From a virus, in the IMG/VR virus record IMGVR_UViG_3300043429_000442, positions 1-24,517 of that record: DNA of 24,517 nt; one strand, given 5' to 3'. Made by a program: the position numbers and the translations under genes. The notes beneath the pieces are model-generated. The model did no database searches. It had not been told where the DNA came from and saw only the letters and a program-made list of their open reading frames with translations. This document shows, in pieces, positions 2,177 to 24,429 of the stretch (within the stretch, counting starts at the first letter, position 1; every line of letters starts with the position of its first letter).

Positions 2177-2184
2177 TATAAATA
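2177..2184 (+). promoter_or_regulatory. late-type promoter box TATAAATA
   Basis: Perfect match to the T4 late consensus, ending 9 nt before the ATG at 2194. No Shine-Dalgarno lies between box and start. With T4 spacing the transcript would start about 4 nt before the ATG. Confidence 0.6.
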
Positions 2185-2193
2185 AATAGAAGT

Positions 2194-4290
2194 ATGTCAA
2201 GTATTATACCCGAGGGATTCGGCTCCACAGCATTAAATGGTAGAATAAGCTCATATGCAGACTTAGTTTATAGAACTAAGTCTCTATTAGGCTGGCCTTC
2301 TACTCCAATTGAACTCACTGATGTTCAATGGGCGCATATCATAGATAAAGCTGTTGAAGATTTTACAGAATTTGAAGGTAATCGAGAAGAAGAATATCTA
2401 GTATTTTGTTCCAATCTATATAAACGTGGATGTGGAGTTAAACTGGATGAGCTTCTACCAGTTGCATGTAATACAAATCAATGTTTCCAAACCATTGCCA
2501 CAGAAACAGTGACAGCAACATATTTAAGTTGTGAAGATATACAGACTACTACTGCATATTTATCAGTTACGCCTTTTGAATATCCGACTGATTATAATTT
2601 TTTGGACCCACTTTCAGTCGCATATTCGGGGACTAGTGGGCAGAATTCTTATCTCTACTTCGATCCTGAAAACCCGTGGAATGCAACAAATGTATGTGCA
2701 GCCAATTGTATTACAATAAATCCGATAAGTTCACAATACTTTCAATTATCTAGTAATCCGAATTTATCTGCACATGTTTTTAATTTTGAGAATTCTACAA
2801 TATTAGAAAATGTTCTTTCTACAATATCAGCCGAAATTATAGGATACGATTTCAGTGCCGTTCCGTTAAGTGGATTAGGAAATGCTCTATCAGCCATACC
2901 CATAAGTTACTTTGATTTGTCTGCATTTTATTCAGATAATATTTTATTCGGACCACCTGTTCAAGCATGTGTAAATATTGGAAAGGGTTTAGGATATATA
3001 TATCCTAATTGTAATACATCCTTGATAAGTTCATGTAATGCATTAACAGCACAATATGGAATTTCTCCTACTGTTACATATATTTTAACATCTGATATTA
3101 TTTCTAGTATTGATATTGTTTTATCGGCTGCTAATTTTTCTGCTGTCTCAGCATACTATACAAGTTATTGTGAAGAATGCAACTGTAAATGTGAACTACT
3201 TTCAACATTTACAGATACTACTTCTTCGTATCATTTTGAATTATTTTCACCATATATAAGTGCAAGCACCGGGATTGTATGGGATCTATCAGCAAGAGAT
3301 ATATCAGATGCAACGCATATACGGCTTTTTGGCGTGCCTTCATGCACCACTGATGGTTCGATACCTCTCGACTCAAACAACGGCATTCTTGGCACCTTTA
3401 CGCTATGTAATACAGCGTTCTCTACGAATGGTCCTATGACGCTTGAGAAAGTTCAATTCTTCGAAGATTCTAAGCCACCTCTAGAAATATTATATGATCA
3501 AAACTGTGCATGGACAAATAACGGGTTTACGTTTTCTTATTACAATTCTGCCCATACGGCATGTGTTCGTCCGACTCCTAAAAAGGTTAAAGTCGATGTA
3601 TCGTTTAAAAATTGTTCTACAGTAACCGAGGTAGGTGTAGTTAGCACTGTTATCGATGGTGGATATGATGATGTTCTTAACCGTAGAAGAAAAGTTCTCG
3701 GGGTGTTTGCGGCAGATAATGCGGGACAAGGTGGATATTTCGGGGGCGGTGGTGATCTATTATTCAATTTTGATTATGCACTTCTTGCAAGTACATTTGG
3801 TTATGACTTAATGGGTAGCAGAAACAACCTAGGCAAACAAGGCTATGATTTACTAACATATCATATGGCAAGAGATTTTGTTGACCACTCCAAGAAAATG
3901 CTAAGATATGTTTCTTATCAATTTAATCCAAGAACACAGTATTTAAAAATAACTCCTGAACCTGCTGGTACGACATTTGGATTTGAAACTTCTTGCTGCA
4001 ATAATCAGGTGAATAGAGGGGGTAATCAATGTTATGTATTAGGGGTTTATATCGAACCTTCTGTGGAAACTTTGCTAAATACTTATTTCATTAAAGAATA
4101 CGTACTTGCACTTGCAATGATCACTCTTGGAAGAATTCGTTCAACTTTTGGTGGTGTTACGCTTTATGGTGGTGCAACACTAGAAGGCGCTCAATTAGTT
4201 GAAAAGGGTGAGGCAAAGGCAGAAAAATTATTAGCAGAACTTCGTGATGAGTATAGATATTCAAGTCCTATGGGATTCTATATCGGATAA
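2194..4290 (+). CDS. virion structural protein, probable neck/head-tail connector family
   Basis: A 698-residue protein directly after the portal. Its N-terminus (residues about 20-70) has the pattern YADLVYRTKSLLGWP, then ELTDVQW, then an AVEDFTEF helix, which I associate with connector-like structural proteins of large T4-type phages. The C-terminus (about 590-698) has a conserved-looking block: a KEYVLALAMITLGRIRS helix, a Gly-rich loop and a charged helix ending in ELRDEYRY. Between them is a long Ser/Ala/Cys-rich, probably beta-structured insert, including the cluster C326-E-E-C-N-C-K-C333. T4 neck proteins are much shorter (gp13 about 309 aa). Position after the portal supports a head-completion or connector role, but the exact T4 equivalent, perhaps gp13, is inferred. 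Confidence 0.6.
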   Translation: MSSIIPEGFGSTALNGRISSYADLVYRTKSLLGWPSTPIELTDVQWAHIIDKAVEDFTEFEGNREEEYLVFCSNLYKRGCGVKLDELLPVACNTNQCFQTIATETVTATYLSCEDIQTTTAYLSVTPFEYPTDYNFLDPLSVAYSGTSGQNSYLYFDPENPWNATNVCAANCITINPISSQYFQLSSNPNLSAHVFNFENSTILENVLSTISAEIIGYDFSAVPLSGLGNALSAIPISYFDLSAFYSDNILFGPPVQACVNIGKGLGYIYPNCNTSLISSCNALTAQYGISPTVTYILTSDIISSIDIVLSAANFSAVSAYYTSYCEECNCKCELLSTFTDTTSSYHFELFSPYISASTGIVWDLSARDISDATHIRLFGVPSCTTDGSIPLDSNNGILGTFTLCNTAFSTNGPMTLEKVQFFEDSKPPLEILYDQNCAWTNNGFTFSYYNSAHTACVRPTPKKVKVDVSFKNCSTVTEVGVVSTVIDGGYDDVLNRRRKVLGVFAADNAGQGGYFGGGGDLLFNFDYALLASTFGYDLMGSRNNLGKQGYDLLTYHMARDFVDHSKKMLRYVSYQFNPRTQYLKITPEPAGTTFGFETSCCNNQVNRGGNQCYVLGVYIEPSVETLLNTYFIKEYVLALAMITLGRIRSTFGGVTLYGGATLEGAQLVEKGEAKAEKLLAELRDEYRYSSPMGFYIG

Positions 4291-4311
4291 CTATATACAG
4301 TTGAATAATTT

Positions 4312-4319
4312 AATAAGTA
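4312..4319 (+). promoter_or_regulatory. late-type promoter box AATAAGTA (one mismatch to TATAAGTA)
   Basis: Ends 6 nt before the ATG at 4326, in the 35-nt gap after the connector-like gene. It differs at the first base from the TATAAGTA form seen before the kinase-like and sheath genes. Confidence 0.4.
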
Positions 4320-4325
4320 TAACAT

Positions 4326-4625
4326 ATGACCGAGAAATTTGACGAATTTGTTTACAACCTATTACATGAGGGTAAAAAACCTCGTTGTACTGGGCCTACA
4401 CTTCCACAATTATCTGATAATCCTCGTTATGTGTTTAGTAGATGTGCGCCAAATCCCTACACCGCTGGATATAAAAGAATTTATTATCTTCGTCGTGGAG
4501 AACCTCTTACGTTGGATAAATGTAAGAATGATCCTAGATATGGCACTTCGAAATATGAAGATTGTCGTCTAGCAAGACGGGCTGCTGCTAATCGCAAACG
4601 TCGTTTAAGAAGACGTAAAGGTTAA
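4326..4625 (+). CDS. small basic protein with Arg/Lys-rich tail, unknown
   Basis: A 99-residue protein that I do not recognise. It has four cysteines (C21, C40, C66, C80) and an extremely basic end (about residues 83-99, RRAAANRKRRLRRRKG), which suggests nucleic-acid binding or neutralisation of DNA charge. It has no membrane segment or signal peptide. It follows portal and connector genes on the same strand, so a virion-associated or packaging role is possible but is inference. Its TAA overlaps the TAA of the convergent PAS gene in the sequence TTAA. Confidence 0.75.
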   Translation: MTEKFDEFVYNLLHEGKKPRCTGPTLPQLSDNPRYVFSRCAPNPYTAGYKRIYYLRRGEPLTLDKCKNDPRYGTSKYEDCRLARRAAANRKRRLRRRKG

Positions 4626-5263
4626 TGTGTTTGGGTAATAGTCCCATGATAACCTAGAATAGTTCCATCCACTGATTTGTGGGGATATATAGTACATTTA
4701 ACATCTTCAGTTATGCCTGTTTGTTGGTGTTTTATTATGAACTCGGATTCAAAGGGTATATTATACTTTATACTATTTTGCCACAATGCCCACACTTTAT
4801 CCCGAAAATCCTCCTCTATGCTAATAACCCATGAATTTGACTTAACACTTTCAGAATCAAGGCCAGTCATGTTTAAAAAGGCTTTATTAGCCCATACCAA
4901 TTGCCCGGTTTTATCAAACTCAACCATTCCTGTGGTTACTAAATTTGATGCAATAAGCTTGGATCGCAATTCCGCCAAACGAGTATTATCGTCTATTCGT
5001 AGTATTCTATCCATAATAGACTTACCACTGTTTTTTGAGAACTCTTTATTTAAAGATTGAATAACTGGTAATATTTCGGTATTAATAATATTAACCGTCT
5101 CCGCCATTTTATCTATCTTAGAAATGTGGCCCATGATAGGGTTGTATACGAATCTTAGCCAGCACGGTTTTATCATATAGGTATATATAGGTATACTAAA
5201 ACCAGCCACAGTTATTGCGGCGACGATAAATTCTAAAATATCCTTAGTGTTTGTAAAATCCAT
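4622..5263 (-). CDS. membrane-anchored PAS-domain protein
   Basis: A 213-residue protein with one hydrophobic segment near the N-terminus (about residues 10-31), a linker with helical character (about 45-103) and a C-terminal PAS domain (about 104-211). PAS hallmarks visible are GMVEFDKTGQLVWANKAFL, then NMTGL, the helix around W158-W161, and the final strand GYHGTITQT. PAS domains sense ligands, redox state or light, or mediate protein-protein contacts. There is no kinase, GGDEF or methyl-accepting output domain, so it could act as a sensor, a dimerisation platform or a decoy for a host signalling protein. It stands alone on the minus strand between virion genes and is preceded by a late-type box 5 nt upstream, suggesting late expression at the inner membrane. 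Confidence 0.8.
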   Translation of the reverse strand: MDFTNTKDILEFIVAAITVAGFSIPIYTYMIKPCWLRFVYNPIMGHISKIDKMAETVNIINTEILPVIQSLNKEFSKNSGKSIMDRILRIDDNTRLAELRSKLIASNLVTTGMVEFDKTGQLVWANKAFLNMTGLDSESVKSNSWVISIEEDFRDKVWALWQNSIKYNIPFESEFIIKHQQTGITEDVKCTIYPHKSVDGTILGYHGTITQTH

Positions 5264-5268
5264 AAGAA

Positions 5269-5276
5269 TATTTATA
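5269..5276 (-). promoter_or_regulatory. late-type promoter box TATAAATA
   Basis: Reads TATAAATA on the minus strand, ending 5 nt before the ATG of the PAS gene. No Shine-Dalgarno sequence lies between them. Confidence 0.6.
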
Positions 5277-5292
5277 TATTAAGTGAAGCATA

Positions 5293-7710
5293 TTACCATA
5301 CAGTAACAGTACTTAATGTTCCGAACTGTAATTTTATTCCCAATAATCTTGCATCAGTTGCAAGATTATCATTAACATTATTAACATCACGATATATTCT
5401 AAAATAGACAAGACTATTTTGGGTAGGTGTTCCACTGAAAGTTATAGTATTCGATATGTCTGAAATATGTAATGCACTGAGAGTGTTTAGTTGATCAACC
5501 ACACTAACCGCTGTTCCCCAAGATTGATCAATCGATTCGAGATCGTTTTTTACCATACTCTGAATAGCAAATACTGCGGAAGTAGTTACAGTTCCTGTAG
5601 TACTTGTCCAATAGAATCGAGTTTTAAAATTCCCTAGATTCCAATTAAGAGGAGGAGATATTTTAAAATGAACATATTCAACAGAACCTGCATCAAAATC
5701 ATAACAATCAAAGGTTATATAATTAGACGATAGACATATCGTAGATGCTTGTGCGGGGGAACCTATTTGGGGTGCCATTGCGCCCGCATCTATCCACACC
5801 TCATCAGTACCTCTCACAGACCATAAACTACTATTTGCATTTACAGTGGTGTATACACCACTGTAACTTTGTGCCCATGTAGTAAAAATAGGATCAGATT
5901 CTATTGATATTCCTGATAGAATCCATAAAGAAGAATTACTCTTCACAACATTATCTGTGGATATCAATCCGGCAGAATTTGTGTTTACGAAAGTGTCAAC
6001 TTCAGTATTATCACCAATTCCCCAAAATGTGCTATTATTCATAACAGTGGTTTTGGTACTATCCCATTCACTAGATAATGTTTTTAAATCGGTGCCCTGA
6101 TAGTTCCAATTTGTTGCAGAATTCAGAGTAACAGCACTATATAAAGTTTGTATATTCAATGCACTAGATTCTAGCCATGTGGTAAAAATAGGATCTGACT
6201 CGGTACCCACTCCACCACTTAAAATCCATAGTGCAGAATTATTTTTAACAGTAGTATTAATCAATACTATGTCAGAAGAGTTCGAATTGACAAAAGTATT
6301 AACTTCAGTATTATCAGTCCCGCCATTTCCCCAATTGGAACTATTAGTTTGAACTGTGATGAAAGACGATTGCCAGTCGCTAGAAAGTGTTTTTAAGTCT
6401 GTACCTTGATAGTTCCAAGTTATTGATGAGTTGGAATTAACAGTACTGTATAGTGTTTGTATATTTGATGCACTAGAATTTAACCATGCAGTAAAAACAG
6501 GATCTATTTCAGAAGTCGAAGAACCGCTTAAAATCCATAGTGCGGAATTATTCTTTACCGTATTGTTTATCAATACAATATCTGAAGAATTAGAGTTGAC
6601 GAATGTGTTGACTTCAGTATTATCCGAATCATTTTCCCAATTAGAACTATTAGTTTGGACTGTGGTATAGGTTGACTGCCAGTTACTAGAAAGACTCAAA
6701 TCTGGAACGAAAAGATATGCTGCACTGTTTGATATTAAATTATTATACGACACTTCATAGTTACTAGAATATGTTTGTGCCCATGTAGTGAAAACAGGAT
6801 CTGTTTCCGTTGAGGATATAGTATTTCCACTTAAAATCCATAGTGCAGAGTTATTCTTGACTGTGTTGTTTATTAAGGTAATATCTGAAGAGTTTGAATT
6901 AACAAAAGTATTAACTTCAGCATTATCCAGATCGTTCTCCCAATTGGAACTATTAGTCTGAACTGTGGTGTATACCGCATTCCAATTAGAACTGTTAGAT
7001 ATTGTCAGATTACTAGTGTTAATAATCACAGAGCTATAGCTCTGTGCCCATGTAGTAAAAATGGGATCAGTTTCAGAAATTGAAGAACCACTTAAAATCC
7101 ATAATGCAGAATTATTTTTAACAGTAGTATTAATCAATACTATGTCAGAAGAGTTTGAATTAACAAAGGTATTAACTTCAGCATTATCCAGATCGTTCTC
7201 CCAATTGGAACTATTAGTCTGAACTATATTATAGGTTGACTGCCAGTTACTGGAAAGTGTTTTTAGGTCTGTACCTTGGTAGTTCCACTGAACAGAAGAA
7301 TTACTTTTGACTACATTAAATAAAGAATTTAAATTTGAACCACTGTTTCCTAACCATGTAGTAAAAATAGGATCTGTTTCAGATCCTCCGGTAGACCATA
7401 TTCCCGAATTTGCTTTAACAACGGTTTCTACTTGTTCCCAATCAGAGGTCAATGTTTTAATATCTGTTCCCTGATAGTTCCAATTTGCACTATTGCTGTT
7501 GACTGTATTATAAGAACTAACCAAGTTGGCACTATATGAATTGGACCATGATACGAACAAAGGTTCTCCACTTATTGCGACACCTGTATTATAATCGTCT
7601 AACACATCAAGTGCAATAGAACTTACACCACTTACAAAATCGGTAATGTCAGATGTTGTGTGGGTATGGTTTACAGTTCGAACTGTTAGTTTTTGGCAAT
7701 TAGAGGACAC
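5293..7710 (-). CDS. repetitive long fibre / probable adhesin, trimeric coiled-coil type
   Basis: An 805-residue Asn/Ser-rich protein starting at a GTG placed 5 nt after a TATAAATA box. The N-terminus has the HTHTTSDITDF pattern common in phage tail fibres. Residues about 50-640 are repeats built from modules around TDPIFTTW (six copies plus a degenerate first one), NWNYQGTD (four), EVNTFVNSNSS (five) and NNSALWILSG (five). A short unit V-x-x-N-S-x-x-W occurs about 18 times and fits a coiled-coil a/d heptad with Asn at d. The last ~170 residues are non-repetitive and look like a beta-rich tip domain ending in LLGIKLQFG. Likely a receptor-binding or whisker-like fibre; its attachment point on the virion is not evident. 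No chaperone gene is visible beside it. Confidence 0.8.
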   Translation of the reverse strand: MSSNCQKLTVRTVNHTHTTSDITDFVSGVSSIALDVLDDYNTGVAISGEPLFVSWSNSYSANLVSSYNTVNSNSANWNYQGTDIKTLTSDWEQVETVVKANSGIWSTGGSETDPIFTTWLGNSGSNLNSLFNVVKSNSSVQWNYQGTDLKTLSSNWQSTYNIVQTNSSNWENDLDNAEVNTFVNSNSSDIVLINTTVKNNSALWILSGSSISETDPIFTTWAQSYSSVIINTSNLTISNSSNWNAVYTTVQTNSSNWENDLDNAEVNTFVNSNSSDITLINNTVKNNSALWILSGNTISSTETDPVFTTWAQTYSSNYEVSYNNLISNSAAYLFVPDLSLSSNWQSTYTTVQTNSSNWENDSDNTEVNTFVNSNSSDIVLINNTVKNNSALWILSGSSTSEIDPVFTAWLNSSASNIQTLYSTVNSNSSITWNYQGTDLKTLSSDWQSSFITVQTNSSNWGNGGTDNTEVNTFVNSNSSDIVLINTTVKNNSALWILSGGVGTESDPIFTTWLESSALNIQTLYSAVTLNSATNWNYQGTDLKTLSSEWDSTKTTVMNNSTFWGIGDNTEVDTFVNTNSAGLISTDNVVKSNSSLWILSGISIESDPIFTTWAQSYSGVYTTVNANSSLWSVRGTDEVWIDAGAMAPQIGSPAQASTICLSSNYITFDCYDFDAGSVEYVHFKISPPLNWNLGNFKTRFYWTSTTGTVTTSAVFAIQSMVKNDLESIDQSWGTAVSVVDQLNTLSALHISDISNTITFSGTPTQNSLVYFRIYRDVNNVNDNLATDARLLGIKLQFGTLSTVTVW
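5990..7230 (-). repeat. tandem imperfect repeats inside the fibre gene
   Basis: Five copies of a segment encoding EVNTFVNSNSS lie near nt 5990, 6291, 6600, 6900 and 7161, so the period is about 260-310 bp. The copies near 6889-6965 and 7150-7226 are almost identical in DNA sequence and offset by 261 bp (87 codons). Length variation by recombination is expected. Confidence 0.8.
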
Positions 7711-7715
7711 ATAGT

Positions 7716-7739
7716 TATTTATAATCTGGATTATAAATA
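7716..7739. promoter_or_regulatory. palindromic divergent late promoter
   Basis: Two perfect TATAAATA boxes point outward: minus strand 7716-7723 for the fibre gene and plus strand 7732-7739 for the 67-aa gene. They form a perfect inverted repeat, TATTTATAATC and GATTATAAATA, with a 2-nt centre. Each box ends 5 nt before its start codon (GTG at 7710, ATG at 7745). The palindrome is therefore the whole intergenic regulatory region. Confidence 0.65.
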
Positions 7740-7744
7740 CTATT

Positions 7745-7948
7745 ATGAAATACCTTACTATGATATTCGATCTTTTTAAAATCGTCCAAACATTTGGGGG
7801 ATTTATACAGAATCTGATTCAAACATCTAAACGAAAAAAAGAAATAAAACACGTTGAAGAAGTTAAAAAAGAGGTTTCTCATATAATAGAAAAACCTATT
7901 AACGACGAAAAGGATATCAAGGATTTGAATGATCGCTTAATGTTCTAA
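7745..7948 (+). CDS. small protein with N-terminal hydrophobic helix and charged tail, unknown
   Basis: A 67-residue protein. Residues about 1-25 are hydrophobic or amphipathic and could be a membrane segment; the rest is Lys/Glu-rich and probably helical (about 28-66), ending in a LNDRLMF motif. This architecture resembles small phage lysis-associated or inner-spanin-like peptides, but nothing specific proves it. An alternative ATG at 7760 exists; 7745 is preferred because it sits 5 nt after the TATAAATA box, the spacing seen at several other starts here. The stop abuts the stop of the convergent VWA gene (TAATTA). Confidence 0.6.
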   Translation: MKYLTMIFDLFKIVQTFGGFIQNLIQTSKRKKEIKHVEEVKKEVSHIIEKPINDEKDIKDLNDRLMF

Positions 7949-9193
7949 TTATTCAAAATCTGATAATTTATAAACCTTAGATTTTTTAGGAATGTAGTTT
8001 CGGTAGTCACTGGATAAGAACCAGTACCATTTTTCCGGTTTTTCAGGAACTACAGTAGTACCATATCCGTCCGAAATAATCCATACCGCATGGGGATATT
8101 TCTTGTTCTCGGTTTTCATTATACTTTGAATTTTATTTTCTATTATACCGAAATTTGTACCTCCACCACCGTATATATTATTAGAAATAATATTCGTTTC
8201 TTTCACAACAGTATCAAAACAAAACAATCTTATGTTGAATTTTTTAGGATTTAGACTTCTAGCGGCTTTAAAAAATCTATCAGCTAGATTTATACAAGAA
8301 CCTGATGTATCCAGAAAAAAGTACACATCGATTTTATCTTTAACCAGATGTTCATCTAATACCCTATGTTCAGAGGGAAGGTGTGTATTATCGGATAATA
8401 TATGGGAATATCTCGGATTTATTCGATCCCATCGTTCAAAATGATGAATATCTTCCTTCTTATAAAAAGATTCCCATTTTTTAATAATGGTTTCCCACTT
8501 GGCCTTTCTTCTAAAAGGAGCCTTGATAGAAATATTCTTTCCTAAGCCGTAACCCGCTATAACATCAGATTTGCAAGATTTTGGAATATTATCTATAAAG
8601 GAATTATCAATATTGTCTAACACACCTGAATCTTCTAACTGTTTTTGAATATTTGTTTGTTGCTCATCAGTTAGTATTAAATGCTTGTCTATAGAATATA
8701 AATTCTGTAAAGGAGTATTGGTCTTAAGTTTATTGAAATAATATTCCGTACTTTCATCTCTACGAATGTTATTATCGTTTTTAAAAACTGTATTCATCCA
8801 GCATCCCTCATTAGCTAATTTAGTATCTAGTGCATACCTATTAAACCCAAATCCCGAAATAAGCATTTCGTTTATAACGACATCCGCTGCAATATTCATA
8901 GTTGAAAAATCTTCGGTTTTGAAATAATGTTTAAACCTAAACCCATGCCGTAGAACAACGTGCAACATCTCATGGCATATGAGGAAAAGTCTAGTATCAG
9001 CATTTAAAGATTGCCAAAATTCTTCATTTATTAGTAAATTCAGAGAATCTCCCTGCTCATTAAAGGTAATTGCCGCCGTGTCTAAATCTTCAAATTTTCC
9101 AACTATAGGATTGCCGATATCCCAAAAACTCCTAAATAGATAGTGGTGTTTTTGGAGTTTTTGGGCGATTTCTAGCTTATCTTCTATGTTCAT
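7949..9193 (-). CDS. VWA-like protein with N-terminal metallopeptidase-type domain (DUF2201-like)
   Basis: A 414-residue protein. The N-terminal half carries a zinc-peptidase signature HEMLHVVLRH (H74-E75-x-x-H78, with H83 nearby), as in the putative metallopeptidase domain of DUF2201 proteins. The C-terminal ~130 residues form a VWA-like domain with MIDAS-type motifs: DTSGS (D295-S299), GGGGTNF (342-348) and SDG (374-376). Its ATG overlaps the TGA of the upstream AAA+ ATPase (ATGA), so the two are almost certainly co-translated and work together, as MoxR-type ATPases do with VWA partners. The likely role is metal-dependent remodelling or maturation of a protein complex; the target is unknown. 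Whether the HExxH site is an active protease cannot be told from sequence. Confidence 0.85.
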   Translation of the reverse strand: MNIEDKLEIAQKLQKHHYLFRSFWDIGNPIVGKFEDLDTAAITFNEQGDSLNLLINEEFWQSLNADTRLFLICHEMLHVVLRHGFRFKHYFKTEDFSTMNIAADVVINEMLISGFGFNRYALDTKLANEGCWMNTVFKNDNNIRRDESTEYYFNKLKTNTPLQNLYSIDKHLILTDEQQTNIQKQLEDSGVLDNIDNSFIDNIPKSCKSDVIAGYGLGKNISIKAPFRRKAKWETIIKKWESFYKKEDIHHFERWDRINPRYSHILSDNTHLPSEHRVLDEHLVKDKIDVYFFLDTSGSCINLADRFFKAARSLNPKKFNIRLFCFDTVVKETNIISNNIYGGGGTNFGIIENKIQSIMKTENKKYPHAVWIISDGYGTTVVPEKPEKWYWFLSSDYRNYIPKKSKVYKLSDFE

Positions 9194-10788: not shown

Positions 10789-10806
10789 ATCGTACAGTAT
10801 ACGACA

Positions 10807-12063
10807 CTAATTCAAATCGTCAACTGTTATTGAGCCTAATTCCATGAGTTCTCGTATTTTTTGTAAGATAGTATCTCTATCTAATACAGGTTCTTCCTCA
10901 AGTGTTATAATTTGAGCAGATTTATCTAATACATCCGTATTTAGATCATTAGTGCTAATAAGACCGTTTATATAAGGAAACTGTAATACACACCAATTAT
11001 AGTGCTCTGGGTTAGTTATAGGATATGGATTCTCAACTCGACTACATCTATTAGCATCCTCTGTGAGTTTCCCCCATCCACATTCATTAACAGCGATAAT
11101 ATCTATAAATCCTAATCCTGAAGGGGCGGGTAATACAAATGTCAATGAATTAGGTGATTTTTCAAATTGATCAATTAATAATCCTTTAAATGCTATTGAA
11201 CCAGATGATAATGGATCATAATCAGTCAAGTCATACATTCCATTCGATGCACTGACATATAGACTATCTACTGAATCCAAATTATATCCTTGTAATTTTA
11301 TATTAGGAGTATCACCTGTTTTAATAAAATACGGAGCAACATATCTAAGAACTGGTCTACCAGATAATGTATAGGAATCTGTCTGGTTTGCACTTGTGTT
11401 CTCTATTAATGTTTCATAATTACAGTAGAATTTATCAGTGAATATATAGTCAGCGTTTATTTTGCATATATTTGCTACTGGTGATAAATCCGAACGGAAT
11501 AGCCACGTTTTTATAGTAAAATTGGCTTTTGCAATAAATCTATAGGGTTTAGTGTGATCTAGGTCAATTGGATAATCTATAGACACATTATTATCCCACA
11601 GTACTTCGGTCCTAACCTCTTTTCCTGTTCGTGGTTCTTGCCAAGAAAAAACTATGTAAGGATCATTATGAACAGCAAAGTTTTGAACTATCTGATCAAT
11701 ATCAGTTTGATACTTTGCCATTATAGTAAGTTCAACATTTATATTCCACGGAATTCTTTTTAAACGAGCATAGCTCCCATCTGGTTTTCTATACAAATCC
11801 TCCTCCAATTTATTTTTAACTCGTTCTGGATCACGTCCCATAGCTGTTGGAATAACTGCTGCAACTGGAAATTTAATAGTGTCTGTTTGGCCTTTAAGAT
11901 CTGCTAATAATCTCGACTTGGGACCATAATAGAAATTTAATTTGATCCAATCTTTTGTAAATCCCGTCCCATCCTCATATCTGCGAATAGATACATCATC
12001 AAATGCAGATTCAAACATTTTTAATGCTTTCTGTATTTCATTATGGAAGTTGTAATCGTTCAT
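10807..12063 (-). CDS. 15: tail terminator / sheath-stabiliser, T4 gp15-like, with Ig-like insert
   Basis: A 418-residue protein, against 272 in T4 gp15. Residues about 15-190 follow the gp15 layout: DDVSIRRY start, the FPVAAVIPTAMG strand pair, IPWNINVELTIMAKYQTDIDQIVQNF, and the FIAKANFTIKTWLF strand. gp15 caps the tail and binds the neck. Residues about 240-333 look like an IPT/TIG-type Ig-like domain (PYFIKTGDTPNIKLQGYNL to FIDIIAVNECGWG), a decoration absent from T4 gp15. Proline and charged residues follow to the end. It is divergent from the gp14-like neck gene with overlapping promoter boxes, consistent with co-production of neck partners. The gp15 call rests on pattern similarity by eye. 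Confidence 0.75.
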   Translation of the reverse strand: MNDYNFHNEIQKALKMFESAFDDVSIRRYEDGTGFTKDWIKLNFYYGPKSRLLADLKGQTDTIKFPVAAVIPTAMGRDPERVKNKLEEDLYRKPDGSYARLKRIPWNINVELTIMAKYQTDIDQIVQNFAVHNDPYIVFSWQEPRTGKEVRTEVLWDNNVSIDYPIDLDHTKPYRFIAKANFTIKTWLFRSDLSPVANICKINADYIFTDKFYCNYETLIENTSANQTDSYTLSGRPVLRYVAPYFIKTGDTPNIKLQGYNLDSVDSLYVSASNGMYDLTDYDPLSSGSIAFKGLLIDQFEKSPNSLTFVLPAPSGLGFIDIIAVNECGWGKLTEDANRCSRVENPYPITNPEHYNWCVLQFPYINGLISTNDLNTDVLDKSAQIITLEEEPVLDRDTILQKIRELMELGSITVDDLN

Positions 12064-12069
12064 TGTTAC

Positions 12070-12081
12070 TATTTATAAGTA
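12070..12081. promoter_or_regulatory. overlapping divergent late promoters
   Basis: The 12-nt string TATTTATAAGTA contains a minus-strand TATAAATA (12070-12077) ending 6 nt before the gp15-like ATG at 12063, and a plus-strand TATAAGTA (12074-12081) ending 5 nt before the GTG at 12087. The two boxes share the central TATA, so both polymerases would contact the same bases. Confidence 0.55.
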
Positions 12082-12086
12082 AAGAG

Positions 12087-12872
12087 GTGGCATATAATAT
12101 TTCAACACCTTTTAATCCTCAGAGAAATTTCTCTTTTAATCCTGTAAATGATAAAGAGAATGCAGTGGGTAATATATCTCCGAACAATGTTCAAGATAAT
12201 CCATATGTTCCGACATGTGCCAACCAAGAATCGACGATGATTACAAATCATCACCAACAAGTTAGAAGTTATGTCAATCAATTCGGTCAGACTATTTCAT
12301 ATCAACCAGTAAAATATAATTTTAATACACATAATTTCTTATATGGTGAAGATCCAACTAGTGGCTACCATTATGCACGAAAACTAAAAGCCATCGTTGA
12401 TTTTAAAAGTTATACTACGTTTTTAACTAAGTTTGGTATAATGAGTGATGCTGAACTCATAATATATATCCCTATACAAGACTTTGAAGCAGTGTGGGGA
12501 CCGTCGAAGGGAGTAACCTTTCCTCTTGCAGGAGATTTATTTATAATAGACAATTCGTCCTGTGATAGACCATTAGGACAGACTGCGATGTGTTGGGAAG
12601 TTATTGATAAAGATGATAAAATAAATCCTACAGATTTTATGGGTCGTCATTTTTATTGGAAATTGACCTGTAAACGTTTTGACTATAGCTATGAACCCGG
12701 AGTAACTCCCGAGAAGTTCCTAGATCAAACATCGGGAGACTCCGCAGAGTTTGGTAGATTATCAGGTGGAGTAAATCCTGAAGAAATGGGAACGGGTTCT
12801 GGTGATGCGGATTCCTTTGCAAAATCTGAATTTGATCAACCAAAAAATAGTATATATGGTGATTATCTATAA
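12087..12872 (+). CDS. 14: neck protein, T4 gp14-like
   Basis: A protein of about 261 residues (T4 gp14 is 256). The order of motifs follows T4 gp14: FLYGEDPTSG, then a LTKFGIMSDAELIIYIPI segment, then FPLAGDLFIIDNS, then PLGQTAMCWEVIDKDDKINP and a C-terminal acidic YGDYL end. gp14 joins the packaged head to the tail. The frame is open upstream to an ATG at 12003, but that would overlap the divergent gp15-like gene. GTG 12087 is chosen because it lies 5 nt after the TATAAGTA box and gives the family length; no ATG occurs in this region of the frame. It is followed 22 nt later by the prohead protease gene. Confidence 0.78.
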   Translation: MAYNISTPFNPQRNFSFNPVNDKENAVGNISPNNVQDNPYVPTCANQESTMITNHHQQVRSYVNQFGQTISYQPVKYNFNTHNFLYGEDPTSGYHYARKLKAIVDFKSYTTFLTKFGIMSDAELIIYIPIQDFEAVWGPSKGVTFPLAGDLFIIDNSSCDRPLGQTAMCWEVIDKDDKINPTDFMGRHFYWKLTCKRFDYSYEPGVTPEKFLDQTSGDSAEFGRLSGGVNPEEMGTGSGDADSFAKSEFDQPKNSIYGDYL

Positions 12873-12877: not shown

Positions 12878-12885
12878 TATAAATA
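12878..12885 (+). promoter_or_regulatory. late-type promoter box TATAAATA
   Basis: Perfect box in the 22-nt gap between the gp14-like and gp21-like genes, ending 9 nt before the ATG at 12895. Confidence 0.6.
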
Positions 12886-14836: not shown

Positions 14837-14844
14837 TGTAAATA
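14837..14844 (+). promoter_or_regulatory. late-type promoter box TGTAAATA (one mismatch)
   Basis: Ends 8 nt before the ATG at 14853, the first gene of the plus-strand head-assembly run. Confidence 0.4.
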
Positions 14845-15025: not shown

Positions 15026-15033
15026 TATAAATA
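15026..15033 (+). promoter_or_regulatory. late-type promoter box TATAAATA
   Basis: Perfect box, ending 6 nt before the scaffold ATG at 15040. Confidence 0.6.
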
Positions 15034-15939: not shown

Positions 15940-15947
15940 AATAAATA
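15940..15947 (+). promoter_or_regulatory. late-type promoter box AATAAATA (one mismatch)
   Basis: Ends 7 nt before the capsid ATG at 15955, in the 24-nt gap after the scaffold gene. It is not a perfect box although the gene should be the most expressed; read-through from 15026 probably adds to expression. Confidence 0.45.
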
Positions 15948-17565: not shown

Positions 17566-17580
17566 TCCTTAGATAGGAAG

Positions 17581-17610: not shown

Positions 17611-17624
17611 TATTTACAGAACGG

Positions 17625-17653
17625 TTGAAATGACCATTTATGTGGTGTAAATT
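17625..17653 (+). promoter_or_regulatory. possible sigma70-type promoter for the endonuclease
   Basis: TTGAAA (17625-17630), a 17-nt spacer and TAAATT (17648-17653) lie between the terminator and the ATG at 17659. Alternatively TGTAAATT (17646-17653) is a degenerate late box ending 5 nt before the ATG. Either reading is weak. Confidence 0.3.
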
Positions 17654-17658
17654 ATGTA

Positions 17659-19146
17659 ATGGCAAATAAAAAGATGTCCCTTGAATCCTTTAAAGATAAG
17701 GCAAACACGGTTCATGATAATAAATATAATTACGATAAGACTGAATATAAAACACTCCGGGATTATATCATTATCACCTGTCCCGAGCATGGTGATTTTA
17801 CACAGAGAGCAAATGCCCATTTAGATAAACAGGGATGCAGAAAATGTAGAAATACATTAGTAGGTAATAGATTCCGTTCCAATAAAGAAGAGTTCGTCAA
17901 ACAAGCGAATATCTTACACGATAATAAGTATAATTACGATAAATTCGTATATGTCACGGATAAAATCCCAGGTATTATATATTGTCCTATTCATGATTTA
18001 GAGTTTTCTCAAACTCCATGTAATCATAAGAAAACTAAAGAAGGATGTCCTAAATGTTCTAGAGAATTACATGCCAAATTAAAGAGAAATTCCTTAGAAA
18101 AAACAATAGAGTTATGTGAAAATAAACACGGTAAAGGAGAATATGATTATTCTAAAATACCAGAAAATGTACATAGTCACGATAGAGTTATTATTAGATG
18201 TAATACATGCGGCGGAGATTTTGAACAATTGATGTATTCCCATTCTAATATCGGAAACGGCTGTCCTATTTGTAAAGTTTCTAAGGATGAGATTCAATTA
18301 GGTAAATTCATCGAAGAATTGGGCTTAGTAATTACTAGGAGTGATAGGACTGTTTTAGAAGGGAAAGAAATAGATATATTAATTCCTTCACATAAATTAG
18401 GAATAGAGATAAATGGTAATTACTGGCATTCAGATTTAATTACAAACCATGATAAACAATATCATCTAGATAAAACGTCCAGAGCATCTAGTAAAGGAAT
18501 ACAGCTTCTTCAATTTTTCGGGGATGAGATTTTCTACAAAGAGGATATATGTAAGTCTATTATACGGAATAAACTAGGACTTGCTAGTAGATTATATGCA
18601 CGGAAATGTGTAATAAAAGAGGTATCCATAGAAGATAAAAATACATTCCTTAATAATAATCATATACAAGGTAAGGATCATTCTAAAATAAAGCTAGGAT
18701 TGTACCATGATGACGAATTTGTTTCTCTTATGACCTTTGGCGCACCTAGATATAATAAAGAGGTTGAATGGGAATTGATACGTTTCTGTTCTAAATTAAA
18801 TACATGTGTTGTTGGTGCAGCATCTAAACTGTTTCAACACTTCATTAAAAATTACAATCCAAAATCTATAATATCATATGCGGATAAAAGAATAAGTGAT
18901 GGTAATTTATATGACGTTTTAGGGTTTGTCCATACTCATGATGCATCTCCTAGATATTATTATATGCATCGTAAAAATTATCTGAAACGCCTGCATCGTT
19001 CCAATTTCACCAAGGATAGAATTAAAAAACTATACCCAGAGGTGGATATAGTTAATAATGATGAATGGAGTATTATGCAATCCCTAAACTATGATAGAAT
19101 ATGGGATTGTGGAAATAAAGTTTACGTATGGACTTGCGTTCCTTAA
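17659..19146 (+). CDS. free-standing endonuclease: zinc-ribbon repeats plus Vsr-like nuclease (probable homing endonuclease)
   Basis: 495 residues. The N-terminus holds three repeats of a DUF723-like unit, each with paired ligands: C41/H44 with C60/C63, C109/H112 with C130/C133, and C181/C184 with C202/C205; the first two start with an H-x-NKYNYDK pattern. A PD-(D/E)XK/Vsr-like nuclease core follows: GKEIDILIP (D239), then LGIEINGNYWHSD (E250, N252, H257). The C-terminal part (about 295-495), with NNHIQGKDHS, VSLMTFG, LIRFCSKLNTCVVGAASKL and a final WDCGNKVY, is shared with other phage endonucleases of this type. Probably a selfish homing element parked beside the conserved capsid gene. It lies behind its own terminator, so it is expressed separately. 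Confidence 0.85.
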   Translation: MANKKMSLESFKDKANTVHDNKYNYDKTEYKTLRDYIIITCPEHGDFTQRANAHLDKQGCRKCRNTLVGNRFRSNKEEFVKQANILHDNKYNYDKFVYVTDKIPGIIYCPIHDLEFSQTPCNHKKTKEGCPKCSRELHAKLKRNSLEKTIELCENKHGKGEYDYSKIPENVHSHDRVIIRCNTCGGDFEQLMYSHSNIGNGCPICKVSKDEIQLGKFIEELGLVITRSDRTVLEGKEIDILIPSHKLGIEINGNYWHSDLITNHDKQYHLDKTSRASSKGIQLLQFFGDEIFYKEDICKSIIRNKLGLASRLYARKCVIKEVSIEDKNTFLNNNHIQGKDHSKIKLGLYHDDEFVSLMTFGAPRYNKEVEWELIRFCSKLNTCVVGAASKLFQHFIKNYNPKSIISYADKRISDGNLYDVLGFVHTHDASPRYYYMHRKNYLKRLHRSNFTKDRIKKLYPEVDIVNNDEWSIMQSLNYDRIWDCGNKVYVWTCVP

Positions 19147-19154
19147 TTCCTTAT

Positions 19155-19162
19155 AATAAATT
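19155..19162 (+). promoter_or_regulatory. degenerate late-type box AATAAATT
   Basis: Two mismatches to TATAAATA, ending 6 nt before the ATG at 19169. Listed because spacing fits the window-wide pattern; weak on its own. Confidence 0.25.
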
Positions 19163-19168
19163 ACTAAT

Positions 19169-19468: not shown

Positions 19469-19727
19469 AAAAAGTTGAGTCGAATATTGCATGAGGCGTA
19501 TCTATCGCACCATCAATAGTATCGATAGTTTCAGAAAAACCATTATCGGCTCTTTCTTTTTGCTCAAAATCATGTTTGAGTTGTTGTAGCCCCAATTTTA
19601 GAGAACTGAATAAGCCTTGAATCTTTTCAATTCTTTCTTTTATGCTAATTCCTCCAGATGGAAATCTGTTTACACCTTTAACCGGAACAAGGTAATTTTC
19701 TATATAAAGTTCTTCAAGATCTTTCAT
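19446..19727 (-). CDS. 93-aa protein, unknown, coupled to the lipoprotein gene
   Basis: 93 residues, no signal peptide or membrane segment. The central part (about 28-62, IKERIEKIQGLFSSLKLGLQQ) is helical and may be coiled-coil; the end is basic. Its ATG overlaps the TAA of the lipoprotein gene (TAATG), a translational-coupling arrangement. I do not recognise a family. It overlaps the end of the sheath-domain gene by 23 nt. Confidence 0.65.
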   Translation of the reverse strand: MKDLEELYIENYLVPVKGVNRFPSGGISIKERIEKIQGLFSSLKLGLQQLKHDFEQKERADNGFSETIDTIDGAIDTPHAIFDSTFFKSRERF

Positions 19728-19963
19728 TATCGTATATTCTTATTTACTTTCCAAGTTTCTATACGCTTGTAATAATCTGTTAATAACGTAGAATTCAATA
19801 TTAATTCACCAGTAACTTCATAGTTGTTTCCAATTTTTCTTACAACTGGTGGAACAGTATATTGCTTTAATTGCGGGTTAGCCGGAAAATCTGTAATAGG
19901 TGGTTTAGGGGAAGAACACCCTATTAGTGTAATACACATTAAGATTGAAAGATTTTTTAACAT
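19727..19963 (-). CDS. small lipoprotein, candidate outer-membrane spanin
   Basis: 78 residues from ATG 19963, chosen because it sits 7 nt after a perfect TATAAATA box and starts a signal peptide; the frame extends upstream to an ATG that would overlap the divergent gene. The signal sequence MLKNLSILMCITLIGC ends in a lipobox L-I-G-C (cleavage before C16), followed by a Ser/Pro-rich segment (SSPKPPITDFPANP). Small, Pro-rich phage lipoproteins are often Rz1-like outer spanins that help disrupt the outer membrane. No embedded inner-spanin gene is visible; the coupled 93-aa gene lacks a membrane segment. Other roles, such as superinfection exclusion, are possible. Confidence 0.7.
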   Translation of the reverse strand: MLKNLSILMCITLIGCSSPKPPITDFPANPQLKQYTVPPVVRKIGNNYEVTGELILNSTLLTDYYKRIETWKVNKNIR

Positions 19964-19964
19964 A

Positions 19965-19978
19965 CATAAGTATTTATA
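19965..19978. promoter_or_regulatory. overlapping divergent late promoter boxes
   Basis: Plus-strand CATAAGTA (19965-19972) ends 5 nt before ATG 19978. Minus-strand TATAAATA (19971-19978) ends 7 nt before ATG 19963. The boxes share 2 bp, and the last base of the minus box is the A of the plus-strand ATG. Confidence 0.5.
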
Positions 19979-21218: not shown

Positions 21219-21223
21219 ATAGA

Positions 21224-21231
21224 TACTTATA
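21224..21231 (-). promoter_or_regulatory. late-type promoter box TATAAGTA
   Basis: Minus-strand box ending 5 nt before the ATG of the kinase-like gene. Confidence 0.5.
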
Positions 21232-21244
21232 AAAGTAGACAATA

Positions 21245-21276
21245 AAAAAACCCGCTAAGAAATTAGCGGGTTTTTT
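21245..21276 (-). terminator. intrinsic terminator after sheath gene
   Basis: Perfect 14-bp stem AAAAAACCCGCTAA / TTAGCGGGTTTTTT with a 4-nt loop (GAAA on plus, TTTC on minus). It lies 14 nt beyond the sheath stop on the minus strand and has a T-run on both strands, so it can act both ways. The core AAACCCGCTA is the same as in the capsid terminator at 17581-17610. It separates the sheath transcript from the kinase-like gene. Confidence 0.9.
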
Positions 21277-21290
21277 GTTTAGAACTTTAA

Positions 21291-24200
21291 TTAGATAAGC
21301 TCGTTGAAATCTACAGAACTTCCTGTTATAACCAAATCTACCAAGATGTACTTGACTGGACGGGTCGGCTTGATATATACTGCAACATTTAATACACCTT
21401 GATCAACAGATTCAAGGGTGTTATTTCTGTCATCGCATACTAGGATATAATCATATAATCCACCATTATCTTTCATGTATTGAAGGATAGGACGAAGTGT
21501 ATTAACAATTCGTGTTCTAGTCACAACATTATTAGGAAGACCGATGAACTGTGAAAGATTTCCTTGGATACTCTTTGCAAGCCATAATGCACCACGACGT
21601 ATTGAAATTTCTTTCAATGCAGAACTCTCTTTCATGAGAGTTGTGGAATTATATGCAAAAGTTCCTGAAGGTTCTCTCACAATCGGATTAATTCCGATAC
21701 GGGAAAGAAGATCACGTTCTCTCTGATTAGGATTGATTGCAAGATCATTCACATTTGCGAATATACCATTAGATAATCCGAGCGGGGAAGCCCAAGGATA
21801 TTGGTCACGGTCATTTCTTGCATAAAGTGCCGCAGCGAATGCAGAAGGTCCAAACCAATTGAAACTATCAGTATTAGAATCATATGATTTAATCCAGTTT
21901 GCATAAGAGATGCTATAAGAAGAATTAATACCCTGGTATAGATTTCTAAGGTATGAATAAATGTTACGTCCAAAGGTTGCATACTTTTCAGTAGGTTGAC
22001 CTGTTGATGGGTCAAGTGTTAAACCTTTTTGACGCTGAACAATCTTATAATCCTTACCGTTTACAAATATTTGACGAAGAGGATCTTGGATATGAACATG
22101 TGGCACACCACCAGCGGATTTACGAGTATATCTCGCAAAGCTGTCAAAGATGTTGTATATGACTTCCCATGCATCTTGCAGAGAACTATTCATAACTGTT
22201 CCGTCATAAGGACTTAGAGAATCAGTATTTACATAATATGTATCATCAAAGTTGTAACAGATGGTAGGACTTGTAACACAAGAATCGGTAGTAACAGCCT
22301 GACGAGTTGCCCATATAGTAGATAGACCATTATCAATAGTTATATCAATAGGGAATTCAATTGGGTTTTCGACATTTCTGAGTGCTCTTTCAAGTTTAGC
22401 AGGAAGATTTCCTATATCCTTTTTGTAGCAAAGATCATATAGTGCATCACGGCAATATCCTGTATAAGTTCCTGCACCGTATAGTTTATCTCCATATGCA
22501 CGAAGAGTTGCCTCTGCATCGAAGTTATCAAATACATTGCCAGTCTTTTCACGGAACATACGAACAGTTTTTTGTGGTTTACCAGAGCTATCTGTCCAGC
22601 AATTATTTTTAGAAAGATATGGGTTAACCATAACTTTAAGATAATTACTAGAATTGTTGACGGTGTTTTCTAGGAAATAAGAGCGTGCAGGACCACCAAA
22701 ACTATCATTTTCTTTACGATCACTATTTAGAGAACCTACAAACTGTTCAACACGAATTTGATCAAGTTTGTTAATTGTCTCTGTAAGACGTGTAGGACGA
22801 AGTTTGAATAGGGAAAGGATAAGGGAATCGTTATATTCAGATTTACCAAATTCTACACCAGCATTTTGATGAACAATTTCAGTGATAGATCCCGCTGTTC
22901 CATTGAATGTTTCAGAAATTTTGAAATTCCAACGATCTTCTGGCACAGTTACCCATTCGCCAGAAACACCTGGACATACTTCGTTATAATATCCAGAAAC
23001 ACCTGTTAGATCATCAAAATCAGTTGCAGGATTTACGTTGAGGTTATCATTAAGTGCAAGATAAAATCCGGTAAAGTCTTCTAGTTGAGCAGTTTTTAAT
23101 TTATTGACAACTATAATACCTGCCCGAATATCATTATTAACAACGTCTAAATGAGCTTCTGCATTAGCATATGCTCCACATTTCCAGTTGAACTGTTCAT
23201 TTTCAATAAGTTGATACTCACTTGCATTAAGTGTTTTAGAGATAGGTTCACCGAGAACATAGAAGTTTGCATCATTTAGTTGTGCATCACCACTTACAGG
23301 ATAGAAATCGTAACGATCCTTCTCAGGAATAGTGAGACCTAATGCAGTAATAGTTGCACAGGATAGTCCTGCTTCTACTGGAACACCGCAGAATTCGATT
23401 AAGAAATCCTGTGTAGATGCATCAATAGCAGTAGTAGTTACTGCGAATGTTGCGCCTGCACTAATTGTGGACAATGTGGTAAGATTTGTTTTATAACTTC
23501 CTGCAACATCAGTGCTTGCATTGAAATATTTAAGAACTGGATTGCTTGCAATAGAATATGTTCCAAACACATCTCCCGCAGAAACTTGAATACCACTTAC
23601 AGTGCTACCTGATAATAGTCCACTGGTTATAGAGTATGCTTGAGCATATGGGGATGATGAAATATTAACTATAAGACGTTTAGAATCATTTGAGAGATTT
23701 GTTGAGTCTTCGTCAACACTTGCATAGATAGAGGAAAGATTTAAAGAAGTTACAACGCTATATGTGGTTGTGGTTCCACTAACAGTTGGACGAAGTTGGA
23801 AAACTCGAAGTTGTTCTTGAGTACTATCCGCATCAACAACAAATTTAAATCCGGTTAATATGGAATTATACTCAAATGGGTGATCATGAATATAAAGGTA
23901 TCCAGGGTCTTCATCGGAAGAATTTAAAGGACATTCCATATTTGATGATCCATAGCAAATGGAACTGGATACGAAATGGTCAGTATAGAGCCAAGGGAAA
24001 TTTACTCGGCAGGTTTCTTCATCAACGCTTCTGTAGTAGTCGCATACATTCTTTTCTACTGCACTAAGTCCAATAACAGGGAATACTAAGGTATTAACCA
24101 AATCCGAATAGCCAAGTCCACCACCAGAACCATAAGGCATTCTAGTGAATGTCACACTCGCATTGGTGGTAGTCAATATCTGTTTTACCGCATTATGTGA

Positions 24201-24413
24201 ATATTTTTCTGCTGGTGTGGAGGGTAAACCACATACCTCTTCGAATTCGTTGAGTGTGGAGAATCTCATCGGTTCGTCCGTTGGTCCTTGGGAAGTGAAT
24301 CCTACAATAAATATATTTGTTCCAACTGCATTTGTAGTTGTTGGGGATATATCTCTTTCTTGGATCGAAACTCCAGGCGATTCTAAAATAGAATTAAGTT
24401 TTGTATTTGCCAT
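21291..24413 (-). CDS. 18: tail sheath protein, T4 gp18-like
   Basis: Contractile sheath subunit, 1040 residues against 659 in T4 gp18. ATG 24413 is preferred over an in-frame upstream ATG at 24437: it lies 8 nt after a TATAAGTA box and gives the typical start ending in SPGVSIQERD. The N-terminus (NIFIVGFTSQGP, RFSTLNEFEEVCGLP) and C-terminus (IRRGALWLAKSIQGNLSQF, DYILVCDDRNN, VAVYIKPTRPVKYILVDL) are classic sheath regions. The middle, roughly residues 115-470, is a Ser/Thr/Ala-rich beta-type insertion absent from small sheaths and probably facing outward as decorations. It is followed by a strong terminator. Confidence 0.93.
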   Translation of the reverse strand: MANTKLNSILESPGVSIQERDISPTTTNAVGTNIFIVGFTSQGPTDEPMRFSTLNEFEEVCGLPSTPAEKYSHNAVKQILTTTNASVTFTRMPYGSGGGLGYSDLVNTLVFPVIGLSAVEKNVCDYYRSVDEETCRVNFPWLYTDHFVSSSICYGSSNMECPLNSSDEDPGYLYIHDHPFEYNSILTGFKFVVDADSTQEQLRVFQLRPTVSGTTTTYSVVTSLNLSSIYASVDEDSTNLSNDSKRLIVNISSSPYAQAYSITSGLLSGSTVSGIQVSAGDVFGTYSIASNPVLKYFNASTDVAGSYKTNLTTLSTISAGATFAVTTTAIDASTQDFLIEFCGVPVEAGLSCATITALGLTIPEKDRYDFYPVSGDAQLNDANFYVLGEPISKTLNASEYQLIENEQFNWKCGAYANAEAHLDVVNNDIRAGIIVVNKLKTAQLEDFTGFYLALNDNLNVNPATDFDDLTGVSGYYNEVCPGVSGEWVTVPEDRWNFKISETFNGTAGSITEIVHQNAGVEFGKSEYNDSLILSLFKLRPTRLTETINKLDQIRVEQFVGSLNSDRKENDSFGGPARSYFLENTVNNSSNYLKVMVNPYLSKNNCWTDSSGKPQKTVRMFREKTGNVFDNFDAEATLRAYGDKLYGAGTYTGYCRDALYDLCYKKDIGNLPAKLERALRNVENPIEFPIDITIDNGLSTIWATRQAVTTDSCVTSPTICYNFDDTYYVNTDSLSPYDGTVMNSSLQDAWEVIYNIFDSFARYTRKSAGGVPHVHIQDPLRQIFVNGKDYKIVQRQKGLTLDPSTGQPTEKYATFGRNIYSYLRNLYQGINSSYSISYANWIKSYDSNTDSFNWFGPSAFAAALYARNDRDQYPWASPLGLSNGIFANVNDLAINPNQRERDLLSRIGINPIVREPSGTFAYNSTTLMKESSALKEISIRRGALWLAKSIQGNLSQFIGLPNNVVTRTRIVNTLRPILQYMKDNGGLYDYILVCDDRNNTLESVDQGVLNVAVYIKPTRPVKYILVDLVITGSSVDFNELI

Positions 24414-24421
24414 ATAGGTAA

Positions 24422-24429
24422 TACTTATA
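24422..24429 (-). promoter_or_regulatory. late-type promoter box TATAAGTA
   Basis: Minus-strand box ending 8 nt before the sheath ATG at 24413, in the 40-nt gap after the preceding minus-strand frame. Confidence 0.5.

Follow-up and report, generated by a model that had tools for sequence, protein, structure and literature searches.

Late promoter boxes close to start codons point to leaderless virion messages in a clade of uncultured T4-like phages

The window analyzed here is the complete IMG/VR record IMGVR_UViG_3300043429_000442, a stretch of 24,517 bases with a T4-like gene content (portal, neck, sheath stabilizer, head closure, protease, capsid and sheath), in which copies of the late promoter box TATAARTA end 5–9 nucleotides (nt) before start codons. 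The same placement recurs in related records of uncultured phages. We consider it very probable that these boxes are T4-type late promoters set for a start at or near the AUG, so that the late virion messenger RNAs (mRNAs) would be leaderless, or nearly so, and would be translated without a Shine-Dalgarno (SD) sequence. Late transcription in T4 itself is a textbook system in which the late messages are SD-led.

All eleven perfect and four one-mismatch boxes described in a first-pass annotation of the window were recovered where it had placed them, at gaps of 5–9 nt. On the plus strand, TATAAATA lies at 2177..2184 (9 nt before start 2194 of the Ad2/neck gene, 2194-4290), 7732..7739 (5 nt, start 7745), 12878..12885 (9 nt, start 12895, head maturation protease) and 15026..15033 (6 nt, start 15040); on the minus strand it lies at 5269..5276 (5 nt, start 5263), 7716..7723 (5 nt, GTG start 7710), 12070..12077 (6 nt, start 12063, tail sheath stabilizer) and 19971..19978 (7 nt, start 19963). 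The variant TATAAGTA is found on the plus strand at 12074..12081 (5 nt, GTG start 12087, head closure), where it overlaps the minus-strand box 12070..12077 as a divergent pair, and on the minus strand at 21224..21231 (5 nt, start 21218, kinase-like, phrog_15752) and 24422..24429 (8 nt, start 24413, tail sheath). The one-mismatch boxes, all on the plus strand and with coordinates derived from the gap, are AATAAGTA at 4312..4319 (6 nt, start 4326), TGTAAATA at 14837..14844 (8 nt, start 14853), AATAAATA at 15940..15947 (7 nt, start 15955, major capsid protein) and CATAAGTA at 19965..19972 (5 nt, start 19978), opposite the box of 19963. In the divergent pairs 12063–12087, 7710–7745 and 19963–19978 the two predicted late promoters are overlapping or close neighbors, and the GTG starts 7710 and 12087, each within such a pair, stand exactly 5 nt past their boxes. 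The 8-nt gap of the sheath gene recurs in the related records G001, G002, G006, G008 and G021.

By count alone TATAARTA is unremarkable in the window: there are 13 sites where 7.8 would be expected, and 8 of 100 shuffles reach that number. What is striking is their position, as 11 of the 13 end 5–9 nt before one of 26 starts (P ~4e-27 under uniform placement), and the remaining two exact matches (12538 and 14249) are inside genes. Starts 12063 and 12087 were added to this list by hand, the gene caller having picked 12018 and 12003; with the caller's starts alone, there are 9 boxes at 24 starts against 0.14 expected. Taken one by one, 24 starts comprise 11 with a perfect box (5–9 nt), four with a one-mismatch box (5–8 nt), four with a sigma70-type match (5–7 nt) and five (9193, 13583, 13816, 14528 and 19727) with neither at those distances. 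The proposal that genes internal to runs are boxless held for 9193, 13583, 13816 and 14528, which have no box or core within 20 nt (13583 has a poor sigma70-type match at 9 nt), and did not hold in full for the other two genes named, since a core lies 13 nt before start 19727 and a separate sigma70-type promoter precedes 10788, which is therefore not simply internal.

The capsid protein of the window is 31% identical to the best of the listed matches among deposited phages, and relatives of it at 53–100% identity are encoded at 34 loci of uncultured viral contigs, all but 15 of which were extended to whole records. A profile scan matched at least 599 stretches, at least 598 of them relatives, and the best 80 loci were kept. 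In a capsid tree, a very long branch with support of 100/100 sets 24 sampled rows of this clade apart from T4, P-HM1, S-BM3, AG-345-L05, HTVC008M, Mosig, Melnitz and CP81; the midpoint root serves the drawing only, and the program flagged long branches. Genes were called in 20 records, the window among them, with a simple codon-based caller that chose starts blind to the boxes, and the relatives were grouped as eight close, seven mid and two far records (G019 and G020).

At gaps of 4–10 nt we counted 63 exact boxes for 380 starts in the close relatives (0.98 expected), 22 for 344 starts in the mid relatives (0.14 expected) and 15 for 366 starts in the far relatives (0.28 expected), with expectations taken from gaps of 20–69 nt, repeats kept in, and G001 and G017, which are nearly the same as the window, left out. 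Exact boxes at gaps of 0–4 nt are absent from all three groups, and the most frequent gap is 5 nt for close and far relatives and 6–7 nt for mid relatives; a scan of TATAARTA against starts, which had been suggested as a check, thus gives in the relatives a peak at 5–7 nt and nothing at 0–4 nt. The element of the relatives is looser than the motif first described and reads NNTAARTA, of which TAARTA is hereafter called the core. The core lies 5–9 nt before 27–72% of genes in eleven of the twelve longest records and before 20% in G019. Over the wider clade (69 loci, 571 starts) it occurs 64, 50, 30, 15 and 15 times at gaps of 5, 6, 7, 8 and 9 nt, 62 times at 10–13 nt, 29 times at 0–4 nt (14 of these at 2 nt) and 92 times at 14–39 nt. 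We rejected the suggestion that A or G at box position 6 marks two promoter classes, because A and G alike are found before orthologs of gp13, gp17, gp18, gp20 and gp21, G being present in 52 of 344 cores (~15%).

Among orthologs of T4 genes the core is restricted to the late class. It stands 5–9 nt before 63 of 79 T4-late orthologs and before none of 26 early ones (Fisher 6e-14), or 62/75 against 0/17 once tightly coupled genes are removed; orthologs were assigned by phmmer with 39 T4 proteins, rows with identical 42 nt upstream were counted once, and uvsW was counted as late. The 16 late orthologs without a core are gp17 (8), uvsW (3), gp15 (2) and gp20, gp21 and gp23 (1 each), so that uvsW, a T4 late gene, lacks it in all three copies. 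Of 18 capsid orthologs, 16 have it at this distance, and those of the two far records, G019 and G020, lack it. An equal frequency of boxes before internal genes, which the first-pass annotation had named as evidence against promoters, was not seen: with repeats removed, co-directional genes of the close set carry a full box in 40 of 149 cases when the intergenic gap is at least 15 nt and in 2 of 104 when it is at most 3 nt, and the corresponding counts are 11/104 and 2/106 in the mid set and 7/137 and 0/124 in the far set (G019). The restriction to late orthologs, the rarity before tightly coupled genes, the lack of SD sequences at boxed genes and the contrast with T4 together support the view that the boxes are promoters and not translation signals. 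The proposed search for late sigma factors succeeded in part: homologs of gp55, the T4-type late sigma factor, are encoded in three of the eleven longer relatives (G006, G013 and G019), the window, a 24.5-kb fragment, gave no gp55 match, and gp33 was not detected.

The T4 late box is placed at −13 to −6 in PMC1524935 (see also PMC2988020), so that +1 is the sixth base after the box and a gap of 5 nt would put it on the A of the AUG. The lower edge of the gaps of exact boxes is 5 nt. Of 115 genes whose single near core is 9–14 nt away, 54 have pyrimidine-A at box+5/box+6, and the seven neighboring steps range from 17 to 46, a peak that would be expected of an initiator. The claim that SD sites are mostly absent proved right. 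No boxed gene has an SD-like core in any of three sets (0/79, 0/21 and 0/13); in individual clade records SD-like sequence precedes 2–9% of genes against 5–10% of random 15-mers, which is background, and in the wider clade it precedes 54 of the 571 starts. The same measure gave 29–75% of genes against 6–12% at random in eleven comparator stretches. From the gap edge at 5 nt, the lack of SD sequences at boxed genes and the contrast with T4, the leaderless messages first suggested for the window are predicted here too.

In the mechanism we propose, the −10 element NNTAARTA would be read by a gp55-type sigma factor on host RNA polymerase and transcription would start at the A of the AUG or 1–8 nt before it. 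Late virion mRNAs would then have no leader or almost none, and their translation would do without SD pairing. Sigma70-type promoters at the same distance would serve many other genes, and some genes would have both, as has been proposed for the middle genes of RB49 and S-PM2; the downstream genes of tight runs would be translated by coupling, with a weak SD contribution at most. The actual +1, the reading of the box by gp55 and the leaderless route of translation are what we infer from the sequences.

T4 shares with the clade an 8-bp −10 box before T4-late orthologs, served in T4 by gp55, gp33 and gp45, and a gp55 homolog is present in three of the relatives. It differs in that its exact boxes lie 14–29 nt before starts, with one at 73 nt and none at 10 nt or less (133 starts), and are accompanied by SD sequences, found at 11 of 12 boxed genes of the late half, whereas the clade has gaps of 5–9 nt and no SD; the statement that T4 keeps longer leaders with SD sites is therefore correct. 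Further differences are that a minority of clade boxes have TTG at the −35 place and that gp45 and gp33 were not detected in the relatives. Genes with a core at 5–9 and at 14–40 nt number 0 and 6 in the first 50 kb of T4 and 1 and 14 in its late part, 0 and 29 in AG-345-L05, and, in the parts examined, 0 and 6 in S-BM3, 1 and 4 in P-HM1, 1 and 11 in CP81, 0 and 6 in Cr30, 0 and 0 in IC12, 1 and 5 in Mosig and 1 and 9 in Melnitz. The marine T4-like late promoters, with the S-PM2 consensus NATAAATA given in PMC2984593, resemble those of the clade in a degenerate first base and an ATAAATA core, but the marine phages S-BM3 and AG-345-L05 have no core 5–9 nt before starts and P-HM1 has one. SD sequences accompany just 4 of the 29 AG-345-L05 genes with a core 14–40 nt away, so a leadered message is not always SD-led.

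The cultured Pelagibacter phage HTVC008M, which in the capsid tree falls outside the clade of the window and beside Mosig and Melnitz, is mixed. It has a core at 5–9 nt in 18 of 188 called genes, 12 of them at exactly 5 nt, and an SD sequence at two of these 18; unlike the clade, it also has 14 genes with a core 14–40 nt away, 10 of them with SD, and a genome-wide SD frequency of 49%. Its annotated gap-5 genes in the first 100 kb number 11, of which 9 are in the first 50 kb, so the comparison with Mosig and Melnitz, made on ~41 kb of each, may be unfair. Other parallels exist as well. The promoter of the Thermus phage phiYS40 is not known to be of the T4 late type. PMC3594737 describes this lytic phage as having mostly leaderless middle and late transcripts. 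The leaderless genes of Actinobacteria and Deinococcus-Thermus resemble those discussed here in having a −10 element ~12 bp before the start and no SD (PMC3160421, PMC12340547), and differ in being cellular genes read by host sigma factors, whereas the clade has a phage late box in a phage genome.

The same distance is used by a second kind of promoter. Among genes without a core and not tightly coupled, TTGNNN-16..18-TANNNT ends 5–8 nt before the start in 29 placements for 105 genes (1.05 expected), and in two further gene sets in 23 for 81 (0.6 expected) and 22 for 131 (1.0 expected); expectations come from shuffles, and one gene can count at several gaps. In the window such matches belong to starts 10788, 14784, 17659 and 19169, those of 14784 and 19169 being weak and possibly due to chance. 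With coordinates derived from the gap, TTGACG-16-TATACT, an early promoter by type, lies on the minus strand at 10796..10823 (7 nt before start 10788, ATPase-like, phrog_1297), and on the plus strand TTGAAA-17-TAAATT lies at 17625..17653 (5 nt, start 17659, HNH homing endonuclease) and the weak match TTGCGT-17-TAAATT at 19134..19162 (6 nt, start 19169). Since sigma70-type promoters share the distance of the late box, the leaderless plan is not late-only, and the description of a late-transcription scheme is right in that the core precedes late and never early orthologs and too narrow in that sigma70-type promoters occupy the same place in the same genomes. The predicted geometry is leaderless whether the core is late or sigma70-type. 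Overlapping early and late promoters, like the mixed class of the clade, have been proposed for the middle genes of RB49 and S-PM2 (PMC2984593). In G019 (IMGVR_UViG_3300040801_004034; 221 kb), GGAAC ends 15–21 nt before the start in 49 of 349 genes (1.3 expected), mostly ~5 nt upstream of a TATAAT-like −10 with the start codon ~6 nt further (for example at 164–219 kb) and, by eye, without a regular −35. At the same place it was found in 0/101 genes of G006, 0/90 of G011, 1/116 of G013 and 0/53 of G015, and the element is a putative promoter class distinct from the others.

Several observations weigh against late promoters that fire at the AUG. The loose core is not late throughout: TTG lies 16–17 nt upstream of it in 36/216, 21/115 and 10/70 single-core genes of the close, mid and far relatives, and in the close set it is more common with loose cores lacking the leading TA (28 of 141, ~5 expected) than with exact boxes (8 of 75, ~2 expected). 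Among T4-late orthologs it accompanies 4 of 36 cores against 1 expected. Most boxed genes have no TTG at this place, and the excess means that part of the loose-core class consists of candidate sigma70-type or overlapping early and late promoters. Pyrimidine-A at box+7/+8 is nearly as frequent (46/115) as at box+5/+6, and T at −1 is raised also where the box is 8–13 nt away and in coreless genes. Gaps extend up to 13 nt in the wider clade, and the whole of HTVC008M has cores at 0–4 nt in 8 cases for its 188 genes. Terminase (gp17) genes account for half of the late misses, 8 of 16. Homologs of gp55 come from just 3 of the 11 longer records, all of which are fragments; in these fragments gp45 and gp33 gave no match with phrog_223, for which the controls were silent too, or with home-made gp45 and gp33 models, and a clamp-coupled mechanism as in T4 would accordingly be hypothetical for the clade. 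Tightly coupled genes have SD-like sequence in 15/124 cases in G019, the most distant relative (5.1% expected, P 0.002), and in a borderline 14/106 in the mid set (8.3%, P 0.05). All gene starts rest on our own caller.

It is improbable that TAARTA is instead a translation signal, an A/U-rich sequence recognized in a host without SD initiation, with the promoters further upstream. Such a signal would suit the background level of SD-like sequence over all clade genes, from which the host seems not to need SD, and the AU-rich DNA that generally precedes starts in these genomes. However, tightly coupled genes also need translation and TAARTA is rare before them (2/104); it is absent before the 26 early orthologs, it matches the T4 late promoter consensus exactly, and other genes carry a −35/−10 promoter in the same register in its stead. 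The exact boxes of T4, AG-345-L05 and S-BM3, moreover, lie at least 14 nt away. We hold it equally doubtful that the late promoters yield short functional leaders of ~3–8 nt, through a start further upstream than in T4 or through trimming of the 5′ end. Gaps of 7–13 nt do exist, more of them in the wider clade, but in all three groups of relatives no exact box is closer than 5 nt, a limit that agrees with a +1 at box+6 and that would otherwise be a coincidence.

It is scarcely credible that AT-rich sequence or start calling created the pattern, even though the raw motif count is near chance and counts of the reversed motif over whole records are similar or higher. The reversed motif proved unsuitable as a control, because TATAAATAT contains it one base over. 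The AT-only permutations TTATAAAA and TAATAATA give no peak; ATTATAAA and the reversed motif do, but both can overlap the box by a shift. Gaps of 6 and 9 nt are in frame with the TAA of the core and the peak at 5 nt is out of frame with it, so that stop-to-start calling cannot produce that peak. T4 and the Campylobacter phage CP81, whose GC content is similar or lower, have none or one such placement. A T4-type late promoter set for a start at or near the AUG remains the reading that we prefer.

Other features of the window deserve mention. The tail sheath gene (21291-24413) encodes 1040 residues, and sheath families match its C-terminal quarter only (~residues 808–1046 in a longer frame), which makes the N-terminal part unusual. 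Two HNH endonuclease genes lie within the structural region; the first (7949-9193) overlaps the preceding gene by 4 nt, and the second (17659-19146) has its own predicted sigma70-type promoter. The kinase-like protein encoded at 20502-21218 matches phrog_15752, which is described as an inhibitor of host transcription, and its gene has a late box at a gap of 5 nt. No transfer RNA (tRNA) was found in the window, and it has no Rfam match at gathering score. The 120–160 kb region of G019 (L061 and L062), from the same T4-like phage, contains 39 tRNA genes by ARAGORN, one with the anticodon CTA, together with a transfer-messenger RNA (tag GENQLMAA) and a GOLLD RNA (RF02032). Recoded stops in G019 were considered and are not supported, as TAG read-through opens less sequence than TGA read-through.

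Clues to the host come from a gene and from candidate host genomes. Alignment of the major capsid protein against 84,980 GTDB species gave no relative, and a search without positive control did not find it in 379 genomes drawn from the Paceibacterota/Parcubacteria phylum. A polysaccharide-synthesis gene of G006 (L042:149-1075) matches five contigs of metagenome-assembled genomes (MAGs) in GTDB at 55–61% identity; three of them are titled Paceibacterota or Parcubacteria, and the titles of the other two give no taxon. Within the class to which the MAG G022 belongs, it matches 2 of 285 genomes at E<=1e-40, one of these being G022 itself, and we regard the gene as a weak host lead. The pattern TATAATN{4,8}ATG is more frequent than its reversed control in G022 (145 against 80) and G024 (132 against 24), and not clearly so in G023 (37 against 35), G025 (105 against 101) or G026 (34 against 29). 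In gene-called stretches (L181-L197) of G022, G023 and G024, −10-like hexamers pile up 6–8 nt before starts (mainly 6 in G024), and these bacteria may for that reason be largely leaderless themselves; one 20-kb stretch of G026 (12 genes) showed no such pile-up. G022 and G024 show no excess of SD-like sequence, and G023 shows a slight one (13/102 against 8%).

That phage transcripts are often leaderless is said in passing in PMC5312081, and leaderless genes with a −10 element adjoining the start are reported as common in some bacteria (PMC3160421, PMC12340547). Among the open-access literature matches listed, which leave subscription papers mostly outside, none reports a T4-like phage whose late promoters are leaderless. 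In the Melnitz paper the count of late promoters is 15 (PMC9004378), and in pelagimyophages late-promoter prediction is reported to have failed (PMC7029224), which late boxes adjacent to start codons may explain. The odds lean slightly toward a broader picture, in which a widespread clade has dropped leaders and SD sequences at promoter-proximal genes in all phases, its sigma70-type, gp55-type and, in G019, GGAAC promoters all firing at the start codon, and depends on leaderless translation in hosts that are themselves largely leaderless, possibly Patescibacteria. HTVC008M, with both kinds of late gene in one cultured phage, makes a comparison within one phage possible. If the late messages are as predicted, a leader and an SD sequence would be dispensable for high-level expression of virion genes, the promoter would mark the real start and so provide a rule for gene finding, and the hosts of these phages would be expected to be good at translating leaderless mRNA.

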